Below are positions 25,006 through 35,662 of a stretch of DNA of 64,000 bases, piece by piece. A program made the position numbers and the translations under genes. A model generated the notes under the pieces. It had not been told where the DNA came from. It saw nothing but the letters and a program-made list of their open reading frames with translations, and did no database searches. The DNA comes from Acidobacteriota bacterium (GTDB lineage Bacteria > Acidobacteriota > UBA890 > WLXD01). The stretch is from the NCBI GenBank assembly GCA_012103255.1, contig WLXD01000001.1, forward strand, positions 620,001-684,000, written 5' to 3'. Within the stretch, counting starts at the first letter, position 1. Each line of letters starts with the position of its first letter.

Positions 25006-25368
25006 GTGGCTGACGCCTCCGACCCGAACGCACTTCTGCCGCTCAAGAACTCCACGTATCGAGTGTTGCTGGCCCTGGCCGACGAGTCGTTGCATGGCTA
25101 CGCGATCATGCAGTCGCTGCAGACCATCACCGGCGGTCGTGAATCGATCCTGCCCGGCACCCTGTATGCTGCGCTCGCCCGGATGGAGGACGAAGGCCTC
25201 ATCGAGCGAGCGACGGCCCCTGACGACGACACGAGCGGCGGCCCCGCGCGCCGGTACCACCGCCGCACGGACTTCGGCCGTGCGGTTGCCGAGGCCGAGT
25301 CGGAGCGCATCGCCACGTTGCTCGACGTGGCACGGTCGCAGGACATGCTCGCGGAGCGCGCAAAATGA
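25006..25368 (+). CDS. PadR-family regulator of the second ADOP cassette
   Basis: A 120-residue winged-helix protein starting at GTG 25006 with GGAGAG upstream. PadR signature: LPLKNSTYRVLLALADESLHG, YAIMQSLQTITGG, LPGTLYAALARMEDEGLI, then GGPARRYHRRTDFG for the wing. A C-terminal helix gives dimerisation. It overlaps the ADOP gene by four bases. The operator candidate is at 24955-24974. Confidence 0.9.
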   Translation: MADASDPNALLPLKNSTYRVLLALADESLHGYAIMQSLQTITGGRESILPGTLYAALARMEDEGLIERATAPDDDTSGGPARRYHRRTDFGRAVAEAESERIATLLDVARSQDMLAERAK

Positions 25369-28064
25369 TCCGCCGAACCACCAGCGCGCTCTACGCGCTT
25401 GCCCTGCGCTCCTTCCCGAAGGCGCATCGGGCCCAGTATCGCGAAGAAATGATTGCCGGGTTCCGGAACGGCTATCTGGAACGCGTAGAGGCCAGTGGGC
25501 AGCTCGCTGGGCTAGGGTTCGGTCTCACGGCGACCGCCAACGCGCTGTCAGCAGGGTGGGGAGAACGGCGCAGGGTCAACAGCAAGGGCTTGCCAGGTCA
25601 GCGCGGCCGGGTGCTCGAGGGGCTGATCAGCGACCTGCGCTACGCCAGCCGCGCACTGGCGCGGGCGCCGATGTTCACCGCGATCTGCACGATTTCTCTC
25701 GGCCTCGGGTTGGGGGCGGTCTTCACCATCGCGTTGTTCGTCAACTTCCTCCATACCGTACCGGCCGGCGTTCAGACTGAAGACATGGTCGAGGTCGTTG
25801 TGGAGCCCAGCGGACCGCTCCGCCCCGGGGTCGGCGGGTGGGCGATCGAGACGTGGGCCTACCCCGACTATCTCGATCTCCGCGATACCGAGACAGGCCT
25901 GTCTCTCGCCGGATGGGACGTTGCGGACAGCGTCCTCAGCGCCAGCGATATCGCGCCTCTTGACGTTTCCGCGATGTTCGTTACGCCTGGGTACTTCGAG
26001 TTGATTGGCGTGAGTGCGGCCGAGGGTCGGGTGCTGACGGCCGACGACGGTGGGCTCTCCAGTCCTGGCCCCGGGGTGATCATCAGTCACCGGCTCTGGA
26101 CCACGATCTTCGACAGCGACCCGACAACGGTCGGGCGCGCCGTCCGGGTGAATCGCCGCGAGCACGTGGTCGTCGGGATTGTTGCCGACGGGTTCCGCGG
26201 CCACATCAACAGTCGCGGCGCGCGGCAAGCGGACGTCTGGCTGCCGCTGGGTCACCATCCGATCGTCGCGGCCGCGCCGGACATCATCGGCGACCGGTCG
26301 GCAGATTGGCTGCACCTGGCGGGGAGACTCGACGCTGGCGTCACACGTGAGCAGGCCAACGGGACGATTGTGGCGCTGTCGAGTCAGCTCGCCGAGGACC
26401 ATCCGGCCACGCATGAGTTTCGTCGCGGCACAGCGGCACCCTACGCTTCAACCGGAACGAACCAGATCTTCGAGATGGCCGCGATCTCGGTCCTGTTCTA
26501 CGCGATGTCCGGAGCTGTGCTGGTGATCGTGTGTCTGAACATCGCCGGGATGATGCTCGTCCGCACCGCCTCGCGGCGACAAGAGCTCGCTGTCCGCGAG
26601 GCACTGGGCGCCAGCCGCTGGCGGCTCGCCAGGTACTTGATGTCCGAGTCGGTGGTGATGGCGCTGATAGGAGGCGTCATCGGGATCGCAACGCTGCGCG
26701 CGGCAACAGTCACGTTGGTGTGGTGGTTCGGCGGGACGCTCCCGCCAGAGTGGGAACTGACGCCGTCGCGAATCGGCGCATGTCTACTCCTCGCACTGGC
26801 GACAACACTGCTCTTCGGGCTTTTGCCGTCGTTCCGCTTTAGTCGTGGCGGAATGCTGTCGGCTATGAACGACGACGCGGGCGGCGGCGGGTGGAAAGTG
26901 GGGCGCGCCCACCGAGTGGCGGCGGCGCTCCAGGCCGGTGTTGCGCTGCCTTTCTTCGCGCTCGGAGGCCTTCTCTTCCACAGTGCGCAGACAGCTGCCG
27001 TTGCCGATCTCGGTTTCCAGCCTGACGGACTCTACGCTGCGTCGCTGCGCGTCCAGGCGGCGGGCTACTCGGAGGTTGAGGCCGATGCCTTCGTGCAAGG
27101 AGCACGGGAACGGCTCGAGGCTTCGCCGGGAGTAACCCGTGTTGCGGTTGCCGACGGACTTCCGCTCGACTACGAGTATCGACGCACGCGGGTGCGCCTG
27201 CCCAGTGAGGAGATTTCGCGCGCTCGGACGCAGGTCACGCGAGTAGGGTCGCGCTATCTCGAGACGCTCGGTGCCCGCGTTTTGCGCGGCCGCGGCATCG
27301 ACGCGCAGGACCATGCAGGGGCCGCGCCCGTTGCCGTGATCTCGGAGTCGCTGGCGGCACGGCTATTCCCAGCGGGGAATGGCATCGGTGAATCCATCGT
27401 TACCGCAATCGATGGTGATCGCGACGGTGAGTTCACCGTAGTCGGCGTTGTCGCCGATCTGGCCACATCGCAGATGCAGACCGAGCGTCCGCAGATGTTC
27501 GTGCCCATCGAGCAGCAGCCCTCGTCGCGCGTCTACCTCGTGGCGCGCGCTCGATCAGATCTCGAAGGCATGAGCGCGACGTTCAGCAGAGTGATCGCAG
27601 AGCTCGACCCTGACTTCACAAGACCGACGGTGATGAGCGGCGAGCAACTGGTCGATGACAGCGTCGCCGATCTTCTCGAACAGTCCACGCTCTCGGCGGT
27701 CACCGCGGCCACAGCGCTGGCTCTGTCGGCACTCGGCATCTACGGCGTGGTTGCCTTCATGGTGACCTCGCGGCGCCGCGAAATGGGAGTGCGGATCGCG
27801 CTCGGTGCCACTCGGCGCAAGCTTCTCGTATCGGTCCTGATCGACACCTGTCGGCTGATCGCGCCCGGACTGATCCTGGGTCTTGCGCTCGCTCGGGTGG
27901 CGGTGACGCAAACGGGTCTCCTCTGGGAGGCGCCCGGCCTTGCCGAGCCCGTGGCGTATACGGCTGCTGTCATGGCGGCCCTGGTGGTAGCCATCATCGC
28001 GAGCCTTCCGTCGGCCAATCGCGCGGCAGCGATCGAACCACTCGAAGCGATTCGGGCCGAGTAG
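25365..28064 (+). CDS. ADOP-family ABC permease
   Basis: An 899-residue permease with the full duplicated layout. Prefix region: TSALYALALRSFPKAHRAQY. First membrane segment: MFTAICTISLGLGLGAVF, then a MacB_PCD periplasmic domain. First FtsX domain: VLVIVCLNIAGMMLVRTASRR, then LAVREALGASRWRLARYLM. A second periplasmic domain is followed by a second FtsX domain with LGIYGVVAFMVTSRRREMG and RIALGATRRKLL. It ends IEPLEAIRAE, the typical ADOP tail. No ATPase is encoded nearby. Export or mechanotransmission, as in MacB/LolCDE relatives, is likely; the substrate is not known. Confidence 0.92.
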   Translation: MIRRTTSALYALALRSFPKAHRAQYREEMIAGFRNGYLERVEASGQLAGLGFGLTATANALSAGWGERRRVNSKGLPGQRGRVLEGLISDLRYASRALARAPMFTAICTISLGLGLGAVFTIALFVNFLHTVPAGVQTEDMVEVVVEPSGPLRPGVGGWAIETWAYPDYLDLRDTETGLSLAGWDVADSVLSASDIAPLDVSAMFVTPGYFELIGVSAAEGRVLTADDGGLSSPGPGVIISHRLWTTIFDSDPTTVGRAVRVNRREHVVVGIVADGFRGHINSRGARQADVWLPLGHHPIVAAAPDIIGDRSADWLHLAGRLDAGVTREQANGTIVALSSQLAEDHPATHEFRRGTAAPYASTGTNQIFEMAAISVLFYAMSGAVLVIVCLNIAGMMLVRTASRRQELAVREALGASRWRLARYLMSESVVMALIGGVIGIATLRAATVTLVWWFGGTLPPEWELTPSRIGACLLLALATTLLFGLLPSFRFSRGGMLSAMNDDAGGGGWKVGRAHRVAAALQAGVALPFFALGGLLFHSAQTAAVADLGFQPDGLYAASLRVQAAGYSEVEADAFVQGARERLEASPGVTRVAVADGLPLDYEYRRTRVRLPSEEISRARTQVTRVGSRYLETLGARVLRGRGIDAQDHAGAAPVAVISESLAARLFPAGNGIGESIVTAIDGDRDGEFTVVGVVADLATSQMQTERPQMFVPIEQQPSSRVYLVARARSDLEGMSATFSRVIAELDPDFTRPTVMSGEQLVDDSVADLLEQSTLSAVTAATALALSALGIYGVVAFMVTSRRREMGVRIALGATRRKLLVSVLIDTCRLIAPGLILGLALARVAVTQTGLLWEAPGLAEPVAYTAAVMAALVVAIIASLPSANRAAAIEPLEAIRAE

Positions 28065-28134: not shown

Positions 28135-28779
28135 ATGACTCAAAGTAACGAAAGCCTGAAGCGAGTAGATCACCTCATCTTCGGTGCCGCCTCGCTCGAC
28201 GCTGGAATTCAGGCGATCGAGGAAATCCTCGGAGTGCGACCCGGTCCCGGTGGCCGGCATCCCGCGTTTGGTACGTGCAACGCTCTACTTTCGCTTGGCC
28301 CGGAGACCTACCTCGAGGTCATCGCGCCGGACCCGGGTTTGCCGGCACCAGAGCAGGGTCGCTTGTTCGACCTCGGGAGCCTCGAGACGCCCAGGCTCGT
28401 GACCTGGGTTCTGCGGACGTACGACATCGACGACGATGTGGCGCGGGCCGCTTCCGGGGGAGTCACGCTCGGCGCGGTCGATGAGGGCAGTCGCACCAAT
28501 CCGGACGGCTCGGTGCTGCGCTGGCGGCTGACGGATCCCTACGTCTATCCGCTCGACGGAGCGGCCCCGTTCCTTCTCGACTGGGGCAATGCTCCGCACC
28601 CCGGAGGGTCCGCGCCGCCGGCGGGATCGATCACCGGGCTGCGGTTCGAGACCCCGAACGCCGCCGCAGTTCGATCGATGCTGAAGGCTCTCGATCTCGG
28701 CTTCGGGGTGGACGATGGCGCGGAGTTTCAGCTCGCGGCGACGCTGGAGACCGCGCGCGGGCCGGTGGTCCTCCGCTAG
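28135..28779 (+). CDS. VOC-superfamily (glyoxalase-like) protein
   Basis: A 214-residue protein with two betaalphabeta modules of the VOC/glyoxalase type. The first opens RVDHLIFGAASLDAGIQAIEEILGV, with H10 as the likely metal ligand, and includes TCNALLSLGPETYLEVIAPD. The second starts at SITGLRFETPNAAAVRSML and closes near the C-terminus. It resembles the Glyoxalase_3 (glyoxalase-like) family, of unknown substrate. A 6-base dyad GAGTCA-N5-TGACTC covers the start codon. Its stop overlaps the convergent ADOP gene by four bases. Confidence 0.8.
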   Translation: MTQSNESLKRVDHLIFGAASLDAGIQAIEEILGVRPGPGGRHPAFGTCNALLSLGPETYLEVIAPDPGLPAPEQGRLFDLGSLETPRLVTWVLRTYDIDDDVARAASGGVTLGAVDEGSRTNPDGSVLRWRLTDPYVYPLDGAAPFLLDWGNAPHPGGSAPPAGSITGLRFETPNAAAVRSMLKALDLGFGVDDGAEFQLAATLETARGPVVLR

Positions 28780-31436
28780 TCGCCGTTGAGCACCTCGACG
28801 GGATCTACCCGGCTGGCCCGCCACGCTGGAAACGCTGCGGCCGCGATCGCGACCAGCGCCAGCACGGCCGGAGCAGAAAGCATCGTGACGGGATCGTCGA
28901 CCGGCACGCCGTAGATCGCATCGCGCAGTAGTTGGGTGCTCAAACGTGCCCCTGCCAAGCCCGCGACGATGCCGATCGACACGGGTGCCAAGCTGCGTCG
29001 CATCGCAGACCCGAGGATCCCACGGCGCGATGCGCCGAGTGCCAGGCGGACTCCGAACTCGGCGCGACGCCTTCCCGTGGCATATGCAGTGACTCCATAG
29101 ACGCCCACGGCACCTAGACAGAGCGCAATAGCGGCGAAACCCGACAGCAGTGTTGTGAGGAAGCGCGTGCTTCGCGTGGACTCCTCCAGTGCGTTGCCGA
29201 GCGATTGCATTCCAGCGATCGGGACGTCGGCATCAATACGCCACACTGCTTGCTGCACGTCGTCGACGCGATCCAGAGGATCCCCGGACTCGAATCGTGC
29301 CGTGATCCACATGGCCATCCCACTCCGACCAACCTGGTCGTGGGAGAAGTACATCTCGGGTAGCGGTTCAACGCTCCTGCTGTGCTGTCGCACATCGGCA
29401 ACGATGCCGACGATTCGTGCCGGATCCGACGTGGGGGAGAAGAGATGGATGTTCTTGCCCACGGCGTCCCCACCGGGCCAGAACCGACGCGCCAACGAGT
29501 CGTTCACGACCACCACCATTTCGCCGTCGGCGTTGTCAGCCTCCTGCAGTATTCGCCCGACGAGGAGCGGGATGCGCACGCTTCGGAAATAGCCGGGACG
29601 AACGGCGCGATAGTTGATCGACGGCACGGCCTGTCCGTCCTGGATCTCGAGGCCCTCCGGATAGGTCGGAAACGACCAGTTGCCGAACGTGCCTGGAAGC
29701 AGGTGGATCGCGCCAGCCGACTCGACACCTGGGAGCGTTCGCACTCGTTCCACCACGTCGGCGTAGTAGCGCTTGAACGCGTCGTTGTCAGGATAGCCAC
29801 CTTCTGGTGGGTTTGGTCTGAAGGCCAGCACACCATTCGAGTCGAGACCCGGGTCAATCGCCAGCAATGCATCGAGCGATCGCAGCATGAGGCCCGATCC
29901 AGCGGTCACGATCAGCGCCAGAGCGATCTGGACGCCAATGAGCGCGGCGCCGAATCCCGCTCGATTCGCGGCCGCCGCACCTCGTCCGCCGCCCGCTATC
30001 GCCGCGGTACCGTTAGCGCGTGCCGCCCGCTGAATGGGATACAAGCTGGCGACCAGCGTCGTGAGCAACGTAGCCACCAACGCGACGCCGAGCACTGGCC
30101 CGTCCACGGTGACGTAGCTGATCCCCGGGAAATCGTCCGGTGCCAGGCGAACGAGCAGGTCGACGAGGGCGTGTGCCGCCAAGACTCCGGCGATTCCGCC
30201 CGCGGCACCGACGATCGCCGTCTCGAGGAGGACGAGTCGGCCGATACGTTGCCGACTGGCACCAATCGCGGCGCGCAAAGCCAGCTCGCGCTGTCGGCCA
30301 TCGCCGCGCGACAGAAAGAGGTTCGCGAGGTTGGCGCACACGATCATCAGCACGAGCGACACCGCACCGAACGCCGCCCAGAGCGCCGAGCCCACTGAGC
30401 CCGCGCGGTCCGTCGCCAACGCAACCACGGTTGCATCCGCGACGTCCTCCGCGGCGTAAATCTGGGGCGCCCGTCGCTGAATGCCTGCCAGGTGAGTTCG
30501 CACCTCCGCGGTGGCCTGGGAGAGCGTCGCATCGCTACTGAGGCGCGCGATCCGCGTATTCACGTACCACGTTGGATCTTCCTCGAAAGGCAAGCCTGGA
30601 TCTCCGGCCAACGGAACCCACACACGAGTTTTGGGGTCGTAGGGCTCGAAGTGCCTGGGCATGACGCCGATGATCTCGCGCCGCTCGTGCCCCGCACCGG
30701 CGAGATTGATGACCTTGCCCACGATCTCGGGGTCGCCGCCCAGGACATTCATCCAGAAGTCGAACGAGACGACGACGACGCCGGAGTTGGCCGGCGCCTC
30801 CTCTTCCGGTGCGAAGCTCCGGCCGCGCATGGGCGCCACGCCGAGAACTTCGAAGTGATGAGGCGACACCAATGTGGCCGTGAGCTCGATGGGCTCACCG
30901 GCCCCGGTCAACGTCAGCGTCCAGTTGCTGAGTCCGGTGACGCGCTCCAGGCTCGACATGTCCTCCTCCGCTAACGCGACCATGGAGCGGTTGGCATTAC
31001 CCGCGGGCCAGACCACCACGAGGCGATCGGGATCCGGGTATGGCGGCGCCTGAATCAGAACCGGGTACACCACGGAGTAGGTAGCGGTTGCCGCGGCGAT
31101 CCCGACCGCCAGAGTGCCGATCGCGATGGCAGAGAACGTGGGGGCGTGCCGCAACGTTCGCGCCGCGTAGCGTAGATCCTGGAGCAGGTACTGCATGGAG
31201 GGGTGCGACTCCGGTGCGGGGGTTGTGTCGTTGTTGCCGAACCGTTCACGCCACGCCAGCAACGCGATGTCGCAAGCTAAACTCAGCCACACGCGAGCCC
31301 GCCGCCATCGCGAGGTGCCGGCTGTGCGCAGCCGATCTGCGAGAACCTCTTCCAGGTCTGCGCTCCAGCGTTCGCGGAACTCGGCCGGCAGGATTCGGGC
31401 GAGAGCCCTGTAGCCGCGAGTGGCACGTGGACTCAT
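28776..31436 (-). CDS. ADOP-family ABC permease
   Basis: An 886-residue duplicated permease in the third PadR-ADOP cassette. Prefix: RGYRALARILPAEFRERW. First membrane segment: FSAIAIGTLAVGIAAATATYSV. First FtsX domain: LVLMIVCANLANLFLSRGDGR, ELALRAAIGASRQRIGRLVL. Second FtsX domain: LGAVGVYGVTAYATGRRRAEFG, VRLALGASRRGILGSAMR. It ends RASRVDPVEVLNGD. The periplasmic parts are unlike those of the neighbouring cassette at 25365, so the two are not a recent tandem duplicate. It overlaps its PadR by four bases. Confidence 0.92.
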   Translation of the reverse strand: MSPRATRGYRALARILPAEFRERWSADLEEVLADRLRTAGTSRWRRARVWLSLACDIALLAWRERFGNNDTTPAPESHPSMQYLLQDLRYAARTLRHAPTFSAIAIGTLAVGIAAATATYSVVYPVLIQAPPYPDPDRLVVVWPAGNANRSMVALAEEDMSSLERVTGLSNWTLTLTGAGEPIELTATLVSPHHFEVLGVAPMRGRSFAPEEEAPANSGVVVVSFDFWMNVLGGDPEIVGKVINLAGAGHERREIIGVMPRHFEPYDPKTRVWVPLAGDPGLPFEEDPTWYVNTRIARLSSDATLSQATAEVRTHLAGIQRRAPQIYAAEDVADATVVALATDRAGSVGSALWAAFGAVSLVLMIVCANLANLFLSRGDGRQRELALRAAIGASRQRIGRLVLLETAIVGAAGGIAGVLAAHALVDLLVRLAPDDFPGISYVTVDGPVLGVALVATLLTTLVASLYPIQRAARANGTAAIAGGGRGAAAANRAGFGAALIGVQIALALIVTAGSGLMLRSLDALLAIDPGLDSNGVLAFRPNPPEGGYPDNDAFKRYYADVVERVRTLPGVESAGAIHLLPGTFGNWSFPTYPEGLEIQDGQAVPSINYRAVRPGYFRSVRIPLLVGRILQEADNADGEMVVVVNDSLARRFWPGGDAVGKNIHLFSPTSDPARIVGIVADVRQHSRSVEPLPEMYFSHDQVGRSGMAMWITARFESGDPLDRVDDVQQAVWRIDADVPIAGMQSLGNALEESTRSTRFLTTLLSGFAAIALCLGAVGVYGVTAYATGRRRAEFGVRLALGASRRGILGSAMRRSLAPVSIGIVAGLAGARLSTQLLRDAIYGVPVDDPVTMLSAPAVLALVAIAAAAFPAWRASRVDPVEVLNGD

Positions 31437-31777
31437 TTGGCGTCGCCGATCAGGTCGTGCGCGCGGGCGTCTCGCACGAGGGCTTCAAGGCGCCGAGCCT
31501 CCGCCTGAAGCACGTCCTGCCCGAGGTCTGTCAGGCGAACATAGGTTCGGCGTGTGTCCGCGTCCTCCGGCCGGTCGGTCTCGGCCAGCAATCCGCGCTC
31601 GGTCAGGTCACGGATCCGACGGAACAGGTTGGCCGGATAGAGCCGTCCCACGGAAGACTCCTGCGCCTCGATCTGCCGGACGATGCTGGCGCCGTAGCTG
31701 GCGCCGACGTTCAGTGTCATGAGGATACGGAATTCGAGCGGGTGCAGCGGCAGGAACTGGCTCGGCGCGGGGCTCAT
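31433..31777 (-). CDS. PadR-family regulator of the third ADOP cassette
   Basis: A 114-residue PadR protein: FLPLHPLEFRILMTLNVGASYG, ASIVRQIEAQES, LYPANLFRRIRDLTERGLL, then EDADTRRTYVRLTDLGQDVLQ for the wing. The ATG at 31777 has AAGGAG about seven bases upstream. It overlaps the permease by four bases (ATGA). Its sequence is closest to the PadR at 42786 (both have LPLHPLE near the start), and both operators are built on TGTC/GACA. Confidence 0.9.
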   Translation of the reverse strand: MSPAPSQFLPLHPLEFRILMTLNVGASYGASIVRQIEAQESSVGRLYPANLFRRIRDLTERGLLAETDRPEDADTRRTYVRLTDLGQDVLQAEARRLEALVRDARAHDLIGDAK

Positions 31778-31841: not shown

Positions 31842-33056
31842 CTACTGACCGCCCAGGTAGACGAACGTATCCGGGTGGTAGTTCTTCCAGTCGAACCAGT
31901 AGTCCTTGAGCGGCACCACGCGCTGCAGCTCGGCGCCGGCCAGCTCTCCGGAGGTAGCGACGCCGGCGAAGTTCCACTCGGATCCCGTCTGGGCGTCGAT
32001 GAACACCGGCGGCGAGACGTCGGGCTTGGCGTACATCTCGAGCATGAGGTCGTTCACCCTTCGGTCGAACGCCCGTACCGAACGACCATCGCCGGCAACC
32101 GCGATGAGTACAGGCACATCCCCGACCTGATCGGTAACCGGAGTTTGCGCCTGCAGCACGTCCATCGGGTAGGCCTTGCTGATTTCACCGGCTTCGATAC
32201 CGACGATTAGCCGGCGCGGCTCCCATTCACCGTCCGGCGTGATCCCGGCCGGGACGGGGTAGTTCATCCCATCGTCCCAGTCTTCGTCCATGTAGTCGTC
32301 GGCGTGGCCAGGTATGGGCTCGAAGACCAGTGACCCTGGATTCTCGCCCTGCCAGATCTGTAGTGACACCTCGTCGAACACCACGGGTTCGAGCCGTTTG
32401 CCCTGCAGCGGACCGACGAGTGCCTCGCCCGTAACCTGCTGCCACCAGGTGCCCGTCTGCTGGTCGCGCATCACGAAGTTCTGGTTGTTGACGCCCACCA
32501 ATTCGAAGGTCAGAAGCCGACCATCGACAACACTGCTCCACACCAGACCGGTGTGGCAGAGCACTCAATAGGTGGCGACGTACGCTTCGCCCGCGAGCCG
32601 ATCATTGACGATGTGGTGATAGGCGAGCATCCGCACCGGGTAGGCCTTGGCCTCGTTGCCGATGCCAACGCCGATCACGAGATCGTCCGGCTGCAGGAAG
32701 CTGGCGTCGGCCGCCGGCACGAAGCGGGCTTCCTTGACCGGCGAGAACATCATCATCTCGACCACGGTGCCGCGCGTGACAAACACGGCGGCAAGGAGTC
32801 CGAGTAACGGAAGGACGCTGATCGTTCTGAAGATCCTGCCGCGCTCCTTACGCCACACCGCCGCGGTGAGCCCCGTGCCCACCGCGAACAGAGCCATGCC
32901 AAGCCAGCGCGCCAGGTTGAGCCAGGTGCGGGCGCGCGCCATGTCATCCAGGGTGTGGACCTTTTCCGGCATGAGCATGCCGTTGGCCTGGAACCACACG
33001 CCGAGACTGGCGGCGAGGAGCAAAGCCGTCGTGCCAACCACTGCGAGTTTCTTCAT
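31842..33056 (-). CDS. DUF3179-domain selenoprotein (in-frame TGA as selenocysteine)
   Basis: Two abutting open frames in one reading phase are separated only by TGA at 32567-32565. Read through, the product has 404 residues with Sec at 164. Residues 1-~115 hold three membrane segments (MKKLAVVGTTALLLAASLGV; LARWLGMALFAVGTGLTAAVW; VLPLLGLLAAVFV). Residues ~120-404 are a DUF3179 domain: AYPVRMLAYHHIVNDRLAGEAYVATY, then Sec, then VLCHTGLVW. The family motif is TYCPLC-x-TG, so TGA sits on the first conserved Cys and the second Cys remains. A hairpin with a GGTCT loop follows at the right distance. The start at 33056 gives a clean N-terminus with AGGA upstream. Function of DUF3179 is unknown; a redox site is likely. 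A sequencing or mutational stop is the alternative. Confidence 0.85.
32538..32567 (-). promoter_or_regulatory. Bacterial SECIS-like element after the UGA
   Basis: Numbering from the U of UGA, bases 12-18 CCACACC pair with 24-30 GGTGTGG, leaving the five-base loop GGTCT at 19-23. Flanking CTG and CAG can pair further with a bulge. E. coli fdhF has the same apical loop GGUCU at bases 22-26, recognised by SelB. Stem length, loop sequence and spacing all match the bacterial SECIS rules. Confidence 0.82.
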
Positions 33057-33196
33057 GGTCGGGATCCTGCCACATCGCCCGGCCACCCGGCAAAGCAATC
33101 CGATTCCCTCTGGGCGACGTATACAGTGTGGCAGCTTCTTCGCCAGGCTGATCGTGCGCTAACGGCTTGGATCGCAGCGATGGACGTTACTGACGA

Positions 33197-33769
33197 ATGA
33201 CAAACGCAGCAGACGACGCGGAGCTGATGGCTCGTGTGCAGCGGGGCGATGATGTCGCGCTCGCGTCGCTGTATGACCGCCATGGCGGACGGGCCTACGC
33301 GCTTGCCTTCGCGATTTTGAGCAATTCACACGATGCCGAGGATGCTGTCGCGCGGGCGTTCGCCCAGGTCTGGTCCGGCCGCGACCGATACGAGGCTTCG
33401 CAGGGTGCTTTCGTTGCGTGGTTCAACACAATCGTGCGTTCGCGGTCTTTGGATCTGTACCGGTCGCGACAGCGACGTACGCGGGCACACGACGCCGTTG
33501 GCGAAGACCCCGAGGTGAACTGGCAATTCCCCGCGCCCGATGAAGTTGTCGACCGAGATCGGGCGCGCGGCCGCGTGCGCGAAGCACTCAACCAACTTCC
33601 GGCGGAGCTCAGCAGGCCCTTGGCGCTCGCCTATTTCCGGGGGATGTCACACAGTGAGATCGCCGTCGCTCTCGAGTTGCCCCTTGGCACGGTGAAGACC
33701 CGGATCCGGGCGGCGATGCGTGATCTACGCTCATCACTCGAGAACGCGGCGGAGGTGGGAGTGTCATGA
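33197..33769 (+). CDS. ECF-type RNA polymerase sigma factor
   Basis: A 190-residue sigma-70 family protein with region 2 (DVALASLYDRHGGRAYALAF, ILSNSHDAEDAVARAFAQVW) and region 4 (LNQLPAELSRPLALAYFRG, MSHSEIAVALELPLGTVKTRI). The linker is short and no extra C-terminal domain is present, as in the sigma-K (SigK/RpoE-like) group that pairs with RskA anti-sigma factors. It is coupled to the anti-sigma gene by a four-base overlap. It probably directs its own operon, which includes DUF4331 and TPR proteins. It lies divergent from the selenoprotein gene, 140 bases away. Confidence 0.95.
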   Translation: MTNAADDAELMARVQRGDDVALASLYDRHGGRAYALAFAILSNSHDAEDAVARAFAQVWSGRDRYEASQGAFVAWFNTIVRSRSLDLYRSRQRRTRAHDAVGEDPEVNWQFPAPDEVVDRDRARGRVREALNQLPAELSRPLALAYFRGMSHSEIAVALELPLGTVKTRIRAAMRDLRSSLENAAEVGVS

Positions 33770-34557
33770 ACGATCAGCATGACTGGCGCGAATTGGCGGC
33801 CGGGTACGCACTCGGCATCCTGGATGCCGACGAGCGCGCGCTGTTCGAGAAGCACCTGGACGCAGCGTCTGCGCGTGAAGCCGATGAGCTCGCCGCCATC
33901 GCAGGCCTTCTCGGCGAAGCGGTACCGGCGCTGACGCCACCGTCTGCACTCCGTGACCGCGTGCTCGGCGAGGCCCGCGCGAGCCGACCATCCGGGGACG
34001 TGGTCGAGATGCCTGTTTCCGCGCCGGCTAGAGGCCGGGCCGCGTGGATCCCGGCGCTCGCGGCCGCAGCGGCGCTGGTCTTCGTCCTGATCTTCTATGA
34101 TGGCCAGCGACGCGAGATGGCCGGCATGCAGGCTCAGATCGATGGCCTGGGTCAGGAGCTGGAGCTCGCAGAGCAACTGGCGGAGCAGCGGCGACTGCTA
34201 GTCGAGATCCTGCTCGATCCCGACATTCAGGTCGCCGTGCTCGCCGGGCCGGATGCTCCGCCGTCGATGCGTCTCTACTGGAATGGACGCCAGCGTGTTG
34301 CGCTGGTGACTGCGTTCAACCTTGATCCCGCTGCCACCGGCTCGACCTATCAGCTGTGGGGAATCGATACTGCGAGCGGCGCGGATCCCGTGAGTCTCGG
34401 CACCTTCGACACGACAGCGCAGAGGTCGGCCATTGTGGCGCTCAACGTTCCCGCCGGAGTCACGTTCAACGTGGCAGCCGTGACGTTGGAGCCCGCCGGC
34501 GGCTCGCCGCAACCCACCACGACACCGTTCCTGGTCGGCAATTTGTCGTCGAATTGA
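33766..34557 (+). CDS. RskA-family anti-sigma factor
   Basis: A 263-residue single-pass membrane protein. The N-terminal ~80 residues are the sigma-binding helices (DWRELAAGYALGILDADERALFEKH). A membrane segment near 92-110 reads WIPALAAAAALVFVLIFY. It is followed by a coiled region (QAQIDGLGQELELAEQLAEQRR) and the periplasmic RskA_C beta domain (RLYWNGRQRVALVTAFNL, GSTYQLWGIDTASGADPVSLG). Release of the sigma factor would follow regulated proteolysis of this protein. The N-terminal zinc-finger HCxxC of ZAS proteins is absent. It overlaps the sigma gene by four bases. Confidence 0.92.
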   Translation: MNDQHDWRELAAGYALGILDADERALFEKHLDAASAREADELAAIAGLLGEAVPALTPPSALRDRVLGEARASRPSGDVVEMPVSAPARGRAAWIPALAAAAALVFVLIFYDGQRREMAGMQAQIDGLGQELELAEQLAEQRRLLVEILLDPDIQVAVLAGPDAPPSMRLYWNGRQRVALVTAFNLDPAATGSTYQLWGIDTASGADPVSLGTFDTTAQRSAIVALNVPAGVTFNVAAVTLEPAGGSPQPTTTPFLVGNLSSN

Positions 34558-34648
34558 TCTCGACGCAATCCGAATCTCGCCGCGCGACGTACACCGGGTA
34601 GATGCCCCGTTGGGGCACAGATAGTCATCACCCCGGAGGATTGTGTCG

Positions 34649-35662
34649 ATGATCAAGAACCGCGCGAGTGCTGCCGTCGTTCTCGCGGCAGCCTTTCTGT
34701 TCGCTCTTTCCGGCGCGCCCGACGGCCGCGGCGCCGACCATCTCGATGCTCCGGACCTATCGCCGCCGGGCGGCAACCTCATGACGGATATCGCGGACCT
34801 GTTCGCGTTCCCGGACGACGAGCGAATGAACCAGGTCACGATCGGAGCGACGTACAACCCCGCGGCCGGCGTGTTCGGTCCGACCGGCTTCGATCCGACC
34901 GCGGAATACGTCTTCAACGTTGATATGGACGGCGATGCAGAGGCCGACACCATCTACACATTCGAGTTCATGGATGTGCGTCCGAACGGCAGGCAGGACT
35001 ACGTGATGCGCCAGGACGGCGCCATCGTTGCGACTGGCAATACCGACCGGGTGATGGGTCTTGATGATGGCAGCGGCCGCGTCTTTGCGGGCCTGCGCGA
35101 TGACCCGTTCTTTTTCGACCTGGATGCATTCCTGGGCAGCGGCGGGCGCGCGTTCTGCGACGGCTCCGAGAACGACTTCTTCGCGGGGCTCAACGTGAAC
35201 GCCATCATGTTCCAGATGCCGGCGGACGCTTTCGACGGCGCGCCGATCGGCGTATGGGCGACCACCAACGGCGGTGGCGGTACGAGTACTTCGACCCAGA
35301 CAGATCGCATGGGGTTCCCCGCGATCAACACGGTCTTCATTCCGTCCAAGCGCAAGAACGCGTACAACGACGCCGTACCCGGCGATGATGTGAAGCGGTT
35401 TTCCCGGTTCTTGCGCAAGGGATTTAAGGGCGGCGGCAACACCGCGAAAACAGCACGAGCTCTCACGGGCGTGCTGCTACCGGACATCCTGCCCTTCGAC
35501 CCGAGCGGCGCGCCGGGCTTCCTCAACGGCCGTCTGCCTGCAGACGATGTGATCGACGCGGAGCTGGGTCTGCTGACAGCAGGTGCGTTGACCGGTGACT
35601 GCGTGGACGCCAACGACGTTCCCTTCCTCGACGACTTCCCGTACCTGGCCGATGCGCACTAA
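34649..35662 (+). CDS. DUF4331-domain secreted protein
   Basis: A 337-residue exported protein. The ATG at 34649 is chosen: GGAGGA lies eight bases upstream, whereas the GTG at 34643 would be only two bases from it. The signal peptide is ASAAVVLAAAFLFALSG. Domain motifs of DUF4331 are clear: ADHLDAPDLSPPGGNLMTDIADLFAF, FNVDMDGDAEADTIYTFEF, FAGLRDDPFFFDLDAFL and GFPAINTVFIPSKRKNAYND. The family occurs as a cofactor-free envelope protein next to ECF/RskA pairs; its role is not known. The stop overlaps the TPR gene by 11 bases. Confidence 0.88.
   Translation: MIKNRASAAVVLAAAFLFALSGAPDGRGADHLDAPDLSPPGGNLMTDIADLFAFPDDERMNQVTIGATYNPAAGVFGPTGFDPTAEYVFNVDMDGDAEADTIYTFEFMDVRPNGRQDYVMRQDGAIVATGNTDRVMGLDDGSGRVFAGLRDDPFFFDLDAFLGSGGRAFCDGSENDFFAGLNVNAIMFQMPADAFDGAPIGVWATTNGGGGTSTSTQTDRMGFPAINTVFIPSKRKNAYNDAVPGDDVKRFSRFLRKGFKGGGNTAKTARALTGVLLPDILPFDPSGAPGFLNGRLPADDVIDAELGLLTAGALTGDCVDANDVPFLDDFPYLADAH

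Follow-up and report, generated by a model that had tools for sequence, protein, structure and literature searches.

An in-frame TGA, a SECIS-like hairpin and a predicted tandem Rieske-like fold in a DUF3179 gene of an Acidobacteriota bacterium

The DUF3179 gene and its neighbours

The window, a 64,000-nucleotide stretch of contig WLXD01000001.1 from the genome of a soil-type Acidobacteriota bacterium, carries on its minus strand a frame of 404 amino acids that runs from an ATG at 33056 to a TAG at 31844-31842 and contains a single internal TGA, at 32567-32565. The sequence and its translation agree with the first-pass annotation, whose coordinates were all right, in that two open frames of the same phase are split by this TGA alone. 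Around the codon the translation reads ...GEAYVATY-U-VLCHTGLVW.... Residues 107-397 match the Pfam family PF11376 (DUF3179) with an E-value of 3.2e-65 and a score of 220.9 bits against a cut-off of 27, covering model positions 7-292 of 292; the match runs across the TGA, which bears out the earlier identification of the family and of similarity on both sides of the codon. Searches of NCBIfam and PHROGs with the protein returned no match. The features of the gene are:

31842..33056, minus strand: predicted DUF3179 selenoprotein gene, 404 amino acids with TGA read as selenocysteine (Sec), TAG stop included
33065..33068, minus strand: AGGA, a possible Shine-Dalgarno sequence 8 bases 5' of the ATG, read by eye
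32778..33056, minus strand: N-terminal membrane anchor, residues 1-93, judged by hydropathy and charges; predicted hydrophobic helices 2-26, 36-68 and 74-93
32313..32747, minus strand: repeat 1, residues 104-248, predicted Rieske-like beta domain holding Sec164, His147 and Asp198
32565..32567, minus strand: Sec164, the in-frame TGA, opposite Cys in 31 other DUF3179 proteins
32538..32556, minus strand: SECIS-like hairpin CCACACC-GGTCT-GGTGTGG, 7-bp stem, GGUCU apical loop, +9 to +27 after the TGA
32533..32563, minus strand: the hairpin with a predicted lower helix (UGCU/AGCA); minimum free energy -15.2 kcal/mol for +1..+47
31857..32231, minus strand: repeat 2, residues 276-400, predicted Rieske-like, homologous to repeat 1, without the Sec/Cys site

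Basic loops, one N-terminal and one at residues 67-75 before helix three, suggest that the catalytic domain lies outside the cytoplasm. The adjoining genes on the same strand code for a PadR regulator and a permease of the MacB/FtsX type; those on the opposite strand code for an ECF sigma factor and for an anti-sigma factor of the RskA type (33197-34557). Beside orthologues of the window gene outside the genus no conserved neighbours were found, and the sole neighbour common to congeners is an M20 peptidase gene some kilobases upstream; the neighbourhood therefore gives no hint of a substrate. It is also worth mentioning that the sigma/anti-sigma pair is followed by a DUF4331 gene (34643-35662) and then by a TPR gene, an arrangement resembling a regulated cassette. 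At 25006-28064 and at 28776-31777 a PadR regulator gene overlaps a MacB/FtsX-type permease gene, the two convergent pairs flanking a small gene (28135-28779); such pairs are of a kind common in Acidobacteriota.

The internal TGA as a selenocysteine codon

The DUF3179 genes of 396 genomes in the phylum, together with those on public genome contigs (Acidobacteriota, some Gemmatimonadota), were translated with TGA kept open and then aligned. Among 104 distinct sequences the column of the window's TGA holds U in 66 and C in 31, the other 7 having no coverage there. The alignment to homologues proposed earlier thus places the TGA where the family motif TY-C-xLCHTG has its first Cys, as had been claimed. 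With identical copies counted, 75 of 75 internal TGAs fall in this one column, opposite Cys. The interrupted DUF3179 matches listed in the 396 genomes contain one TGA each, and none of them is interrupted by TAA or TAG. The same TGA is present in two separate assemblies of the same genus, so that a base-calling error can be ruled out.

The window's genome (4.81 Mb, 95% complete) encodes the whole set of Sec factors, a search for which had been set beforehand as the refuting test: selA (534 bits), selB (346 bits, the C-terminal piece included), selD (330 bits) and the tRNA-Sec gene selC, which scores 65.9 bits, above the Rfam threshold, and lies on the same contig as selB, elsewhere on that contig. 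No tRNA or RNA families were found beside selB. The selD gene of this genome (G000:C2:892635-893561) is a selenoprotein gene in its own right: a single TGA interrupts its frame close to the 5' end (TSGGUAAKVGPGDL). Among the sampled genomes with the window's DUF3179 subtype, selA was found in 20 of 20 that have the Sec form and in 0 of 10 that have the Cys form, a difference for which Fisher's p of 3e-8 is overstated, related genomes not being independent and the 10 Cys-form genomes all belonging to one family. The selB search in Cys-form genomes agrees with this result. A tree computed with the Sec column left out nests the Cys orthologues among the Sec orthologues, so that, by phylogeny, a single change from Sec to Cys with loss of the Sec system would explain them. 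Across all subtypes, selA accompanies TGA-form DUF3179 in 43 of 46 genomes; of the exceptions, G046 has selB (304 bits), the completeness of G069 is 75%, and in the assembled sequence of G316, at 93% completeness, neither selA nor selB was found, probably through missing contigs.

The SECIS-like hairpin proposed in the first-pass annotation lies at 32556-32538, bases 12-30 counted from the T of the TGA, and is preserved in 42 Sec orthologues that belong to the window's subtype. Pairs +9/+27 to +14/+22, six in all, are formed in 42/42 and the seventh, beside the loop, in 38/42; 36 of the 42 have GGTCT as their loop and the remaining ones GGNNT. The lower helix is predicted for the window's copy and is not conserved in relatives, and Rfam gave no SECIS match within the window. 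The SECIS element of E. coli fdhF, the gene of formate dehydrogenase H, is a hairpin just 3' of the UGA with a GGUCU apical loop at about +19. The window's hairpin resembles it in the same loop and in its place close 3' of the UGA, whereas it starts from +9 with its loop at +16 and belongs to a protein unrelated to formate dehydrogenase H.

The stem is partly fixed by the protein sequence in the Sec and Cys sets alike, and the evidence for selection on the RNA is that of synonymous positions only. At these positions the Sec orthologues use GGT for the hairpin Gly in 36/42 (14% of the Gly codons in the rest of these genes), GTG for Val in 41/42 (41% elsewhere), ACC for Thr in 37/42 (38%) and CTG for Leu in 36/42 (40%). 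In 8 Cys orthologues these preferences are lost (GGT 1/8, GTG 3/8) and two stem pairs are broken. Such codon usage indicates that the hairpin codons of the Sec orthologues are chosen for the RNA. Other Sec subtypes have a different hairpin, from +14 to +32, whose positions are paired in 21-23 of 23 sequences as against 4-11 of 20 Cys relatives. Compared with synonymous resampling, stem length gives mean per-gene z values of 1.5 and 1.4 in the Sec sets versus -0.5 and -0.2 in the Cys sets.

Judged from the sequences, insertion of Sec at codon 164 has a probability of about 0.97. A true stop or a pseudogene mutation, with the 3' frame as a remnant, has nothing beyond the standard code in its favour and is very improbable, given 75 of 75 TGAs in a single column, a frame that continues to either side of it in dozens of genera, purifying selection at synonymous sites of the hairpin, and the full set of sel genes. 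Still more improbable, and with nothing to speak for it, is a genome-wide reassignment of TGA, for example to Trp, or chance readthrough: TGA is the normal stop of neighbouring genes, which end in ATGA overlaps at 33766-33769 and 31436-31433 (TGA at 33767-33769 and 31435-31433) and therefore argue against wholesale reassignment, the residue replaced is Cys and not Trp, and tRNA-Sec is found in the genome.

Sec in this family had been described before, as the first-pass annotation noted. DUF3179 (pfam11376/PF11376) is listed in catalogues of prokaryotic selenoproteins with the motif UxxC/T (PMC9312934, PMC13188914), and these reviews trace the first report of the DUF3179 selenoprotein to a symbiont of Olavius algarvensis (Zhang and Gladyshev 2007). 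The window gene, of the same Pfam family and with Sec in the same UxxC/T motif, is thus a further member of a known selenoprotein family. Beyond the catalogued protein go the Acidobacteriota orthologues with a three-helix anchor, the UxxA/V/D subtype, the conservation of the SECIS, the coupling of Sec to selA and the fold assignment. As far as checked, the duplication, the Rieske-like fold, UxxA/V/D and SECIS conservation are absent from the DUF3179 literature found; none of the literature found that names the family gives it a function, and the literature search brought up no report of a selenoprotein built on a Rieske-type scaffold.

Predicted fold of the soluble part

The AlphaFold2 model made with 26 relatives (pLDDT 91.8) consists of three N-terminal hydrophobic helices followed by two similar beta domains. 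The two repeats are homologous (hhalign probability 99.8%, E 5e-29), and the Sec/Cys site is present in the first only; repeat 1 folded alone reaches a pLDDT of 92.2. Among the best 50 Foldseek matches of repeat 1 in the PDB, all those with a probability of at least 0.25 are Rieske proteins, the best with a probability of 0.99 and an E-value of about 0.1. Rieske proteins are also among the top PDB matches of the whole model, including PetC3 with a TM-score of 0.67; the Foldseek E-values for the Rieske matches are weak, 0.08-1. In profile comparison repeat 2 aligns with the Rieske profile at a score of 22.3 and in a consistent register, none of 150 block-shuffled profiles scoring above 16.2. 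The similarity of repeat 1 to the same profile is not significant (E 0.066), a loose Pfam scan gave no Rieske match for it, and in PDB sequence searches with the single protein and with a 26-sequence profile, the profile gave nothing up to E 10.

Rieske domains (PF00355; PetC3, 5cxm; the carbazole and nitrotoluene dioxygenase ferredoxins 3gce and 5bok) resemble the DUF3179 protein in the beta fold predicted for repeat 1 and for the model as a whole, at the weak E-values given above, and in a weak profile similarity in repeat 2, whose register sets DAQTGSEWNFAG on CPYHGWRYDPSG. DUF3179 differs from them in its tandem duplication, in having no Pfam Rieske match, in the absence of the 2Fe-2S ligand motif CxH...CxxH, found in 0 of 104 DUF3179 sequences, and in the place of its Sec/Cys: the combined alignment puts Sec164 in the beta-hairpin that precedes the first Rieske ligand loop, off the ligand positions. 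The models and profiles together support a tandem duplication of a Rieske-like beta domain without 2Fe-2S ligands. Since repeat 1 has no sequence match to Rieske and the ligands are absent, the predicted structure is best termed Rieske-like and the family not called Rieske proteins.

A search of BFVD with the DUF3179 model gave a distant match to an uncharacterised Indivirus (giant virus) protein, A0A1V0SD44 (E 1.3e-7, probability 1.00), which suggests that the predicted fold also occurs in a giant virus.

Candidate active site and possible chemistry

Near-invariance across all subtypes marks Sec/Cys164, His147, Asp198, Thr201 and Trp205, and makes Sec/Cys164, His147 and Asp198 candidates for the active site. 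Position 167 is more variable: of the 66 Sec forms, 50 have Cys there and 13 have Ala, the remainder having Val, Thr or Asp. In all 15 UxxA, UxxV and UxxD forms (13, 1 and 1; 15 of the 65 full-length Sec forms) the domain is without any other Cys. A thioredoxin-type CxxC or UxxC motif requires both of its chalcogens, which are not found together in every DUF3179 protein; a dithiol mechanism of that type is therefore not general in the family, and either Sec works alone, with an external thiol resolving it, or the chemistry is other than dithiol exchange. The earlier suggestion that a Sec at the core points to a redox enzyme is still a conjecture: it agrees with the Sec/Cys exchange and with the UxxC motif, but the second Cys that the first-pass annotation stressed is not essential to the family, being absent in these 15 of 65.

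Two DUF3179 paralogues occur in the same genome. One is a second selenoprotein (G000:C2:623613-624461; TGA at L012:1681) with the motif UPLANAA, which lacks the second Cys, in a domain with no other Cys; the other (G000:C9:411-1307), near a contig end, is a Cys form, YCTLCGTV, without a TGA.

The odds lean moderately towards the window protein being a membrane-anchored, extracytoplasmic selenol oxidoreductase, its reaction being deduced. UGA codon 164 is, by strong sequence support, read as Sec by the bacterium's own SelA, SelB, SelC and SelD, directed by the SECIS hairpin 9-27 bases 3' of it. The soluble part is predicted to consist of tandem Rieske-like domains that have lost their 2Fe-2S ligands, with Sec in a beta-hairpin of repeat 1, outside the old cluster site. 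Sec164 is probably a nucleophilic selenol, aided by His147 and Asp198, that takes part in thiol/selenol redox on an exported substrate; oxidised Sec could be resolved by Cys167 in UxxC forms, whereas UxxA forms would have to rely on an outside thiol. At three loci in two families a gene for an exported TlpA/ResA-like thioredoxin lies 3' of a CxxC-type DUF3179 gene in the same direction. This thioredoxin is a possible redox partner, which on thin evidence fits a thiol-redox role.

The same residues can be read otherwise. Near-invariant His and Asp alongside a chalcogen, a second Cys that UxxA forms can spare, and a related fold that normally binds metal are what a metal or metalloid site would also present, with Sec/Cys164, His147 and Asp198 binding a soft metal (copper, mercury, arsenic) in a carrier, a scavenger or an organometal-cleaving enzyme; this is unlikely, since MerB, NosL and cupredoxins are all missing from the best 50 fold matches and the neighbours include no metal-resistance genes. 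A MerB-like organomercury lyase was considered, as YCxLC looks like the MerB motif, and was rejected for the absence of MerB from those 50 matches. Somewhat less likely again is non-redox catalysis, in which the selenol of the Sec form would be the nucleophile of a transferase or lyase reaction: UxxA/V/D forms manage with Sec alone, and His and Asp could activate it, yet known selenoproteins are mostly redox enzymes (PMC9312934), and Cys forms outlast the loss of the Sec system, though this is compatible with either view.

For the family as a whole, a bolder and tentative proposal, at odds somewhat below even, would make DUF3179 a double Rieske domain that has lost its cluster along with the metal ligands and become a selenol enzyme, its single Sec lying, together with His147 and Asp198, at a new site and able to act without a partner Cys in the domain. 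If true, this would be an unusual reuse of an electron-transfer scaffold for selenium chemistry. The predicted fold, the candidate residues and the natural Sec, Cys and Sec-only versions make the function of the widespread DUF3179 family testable.
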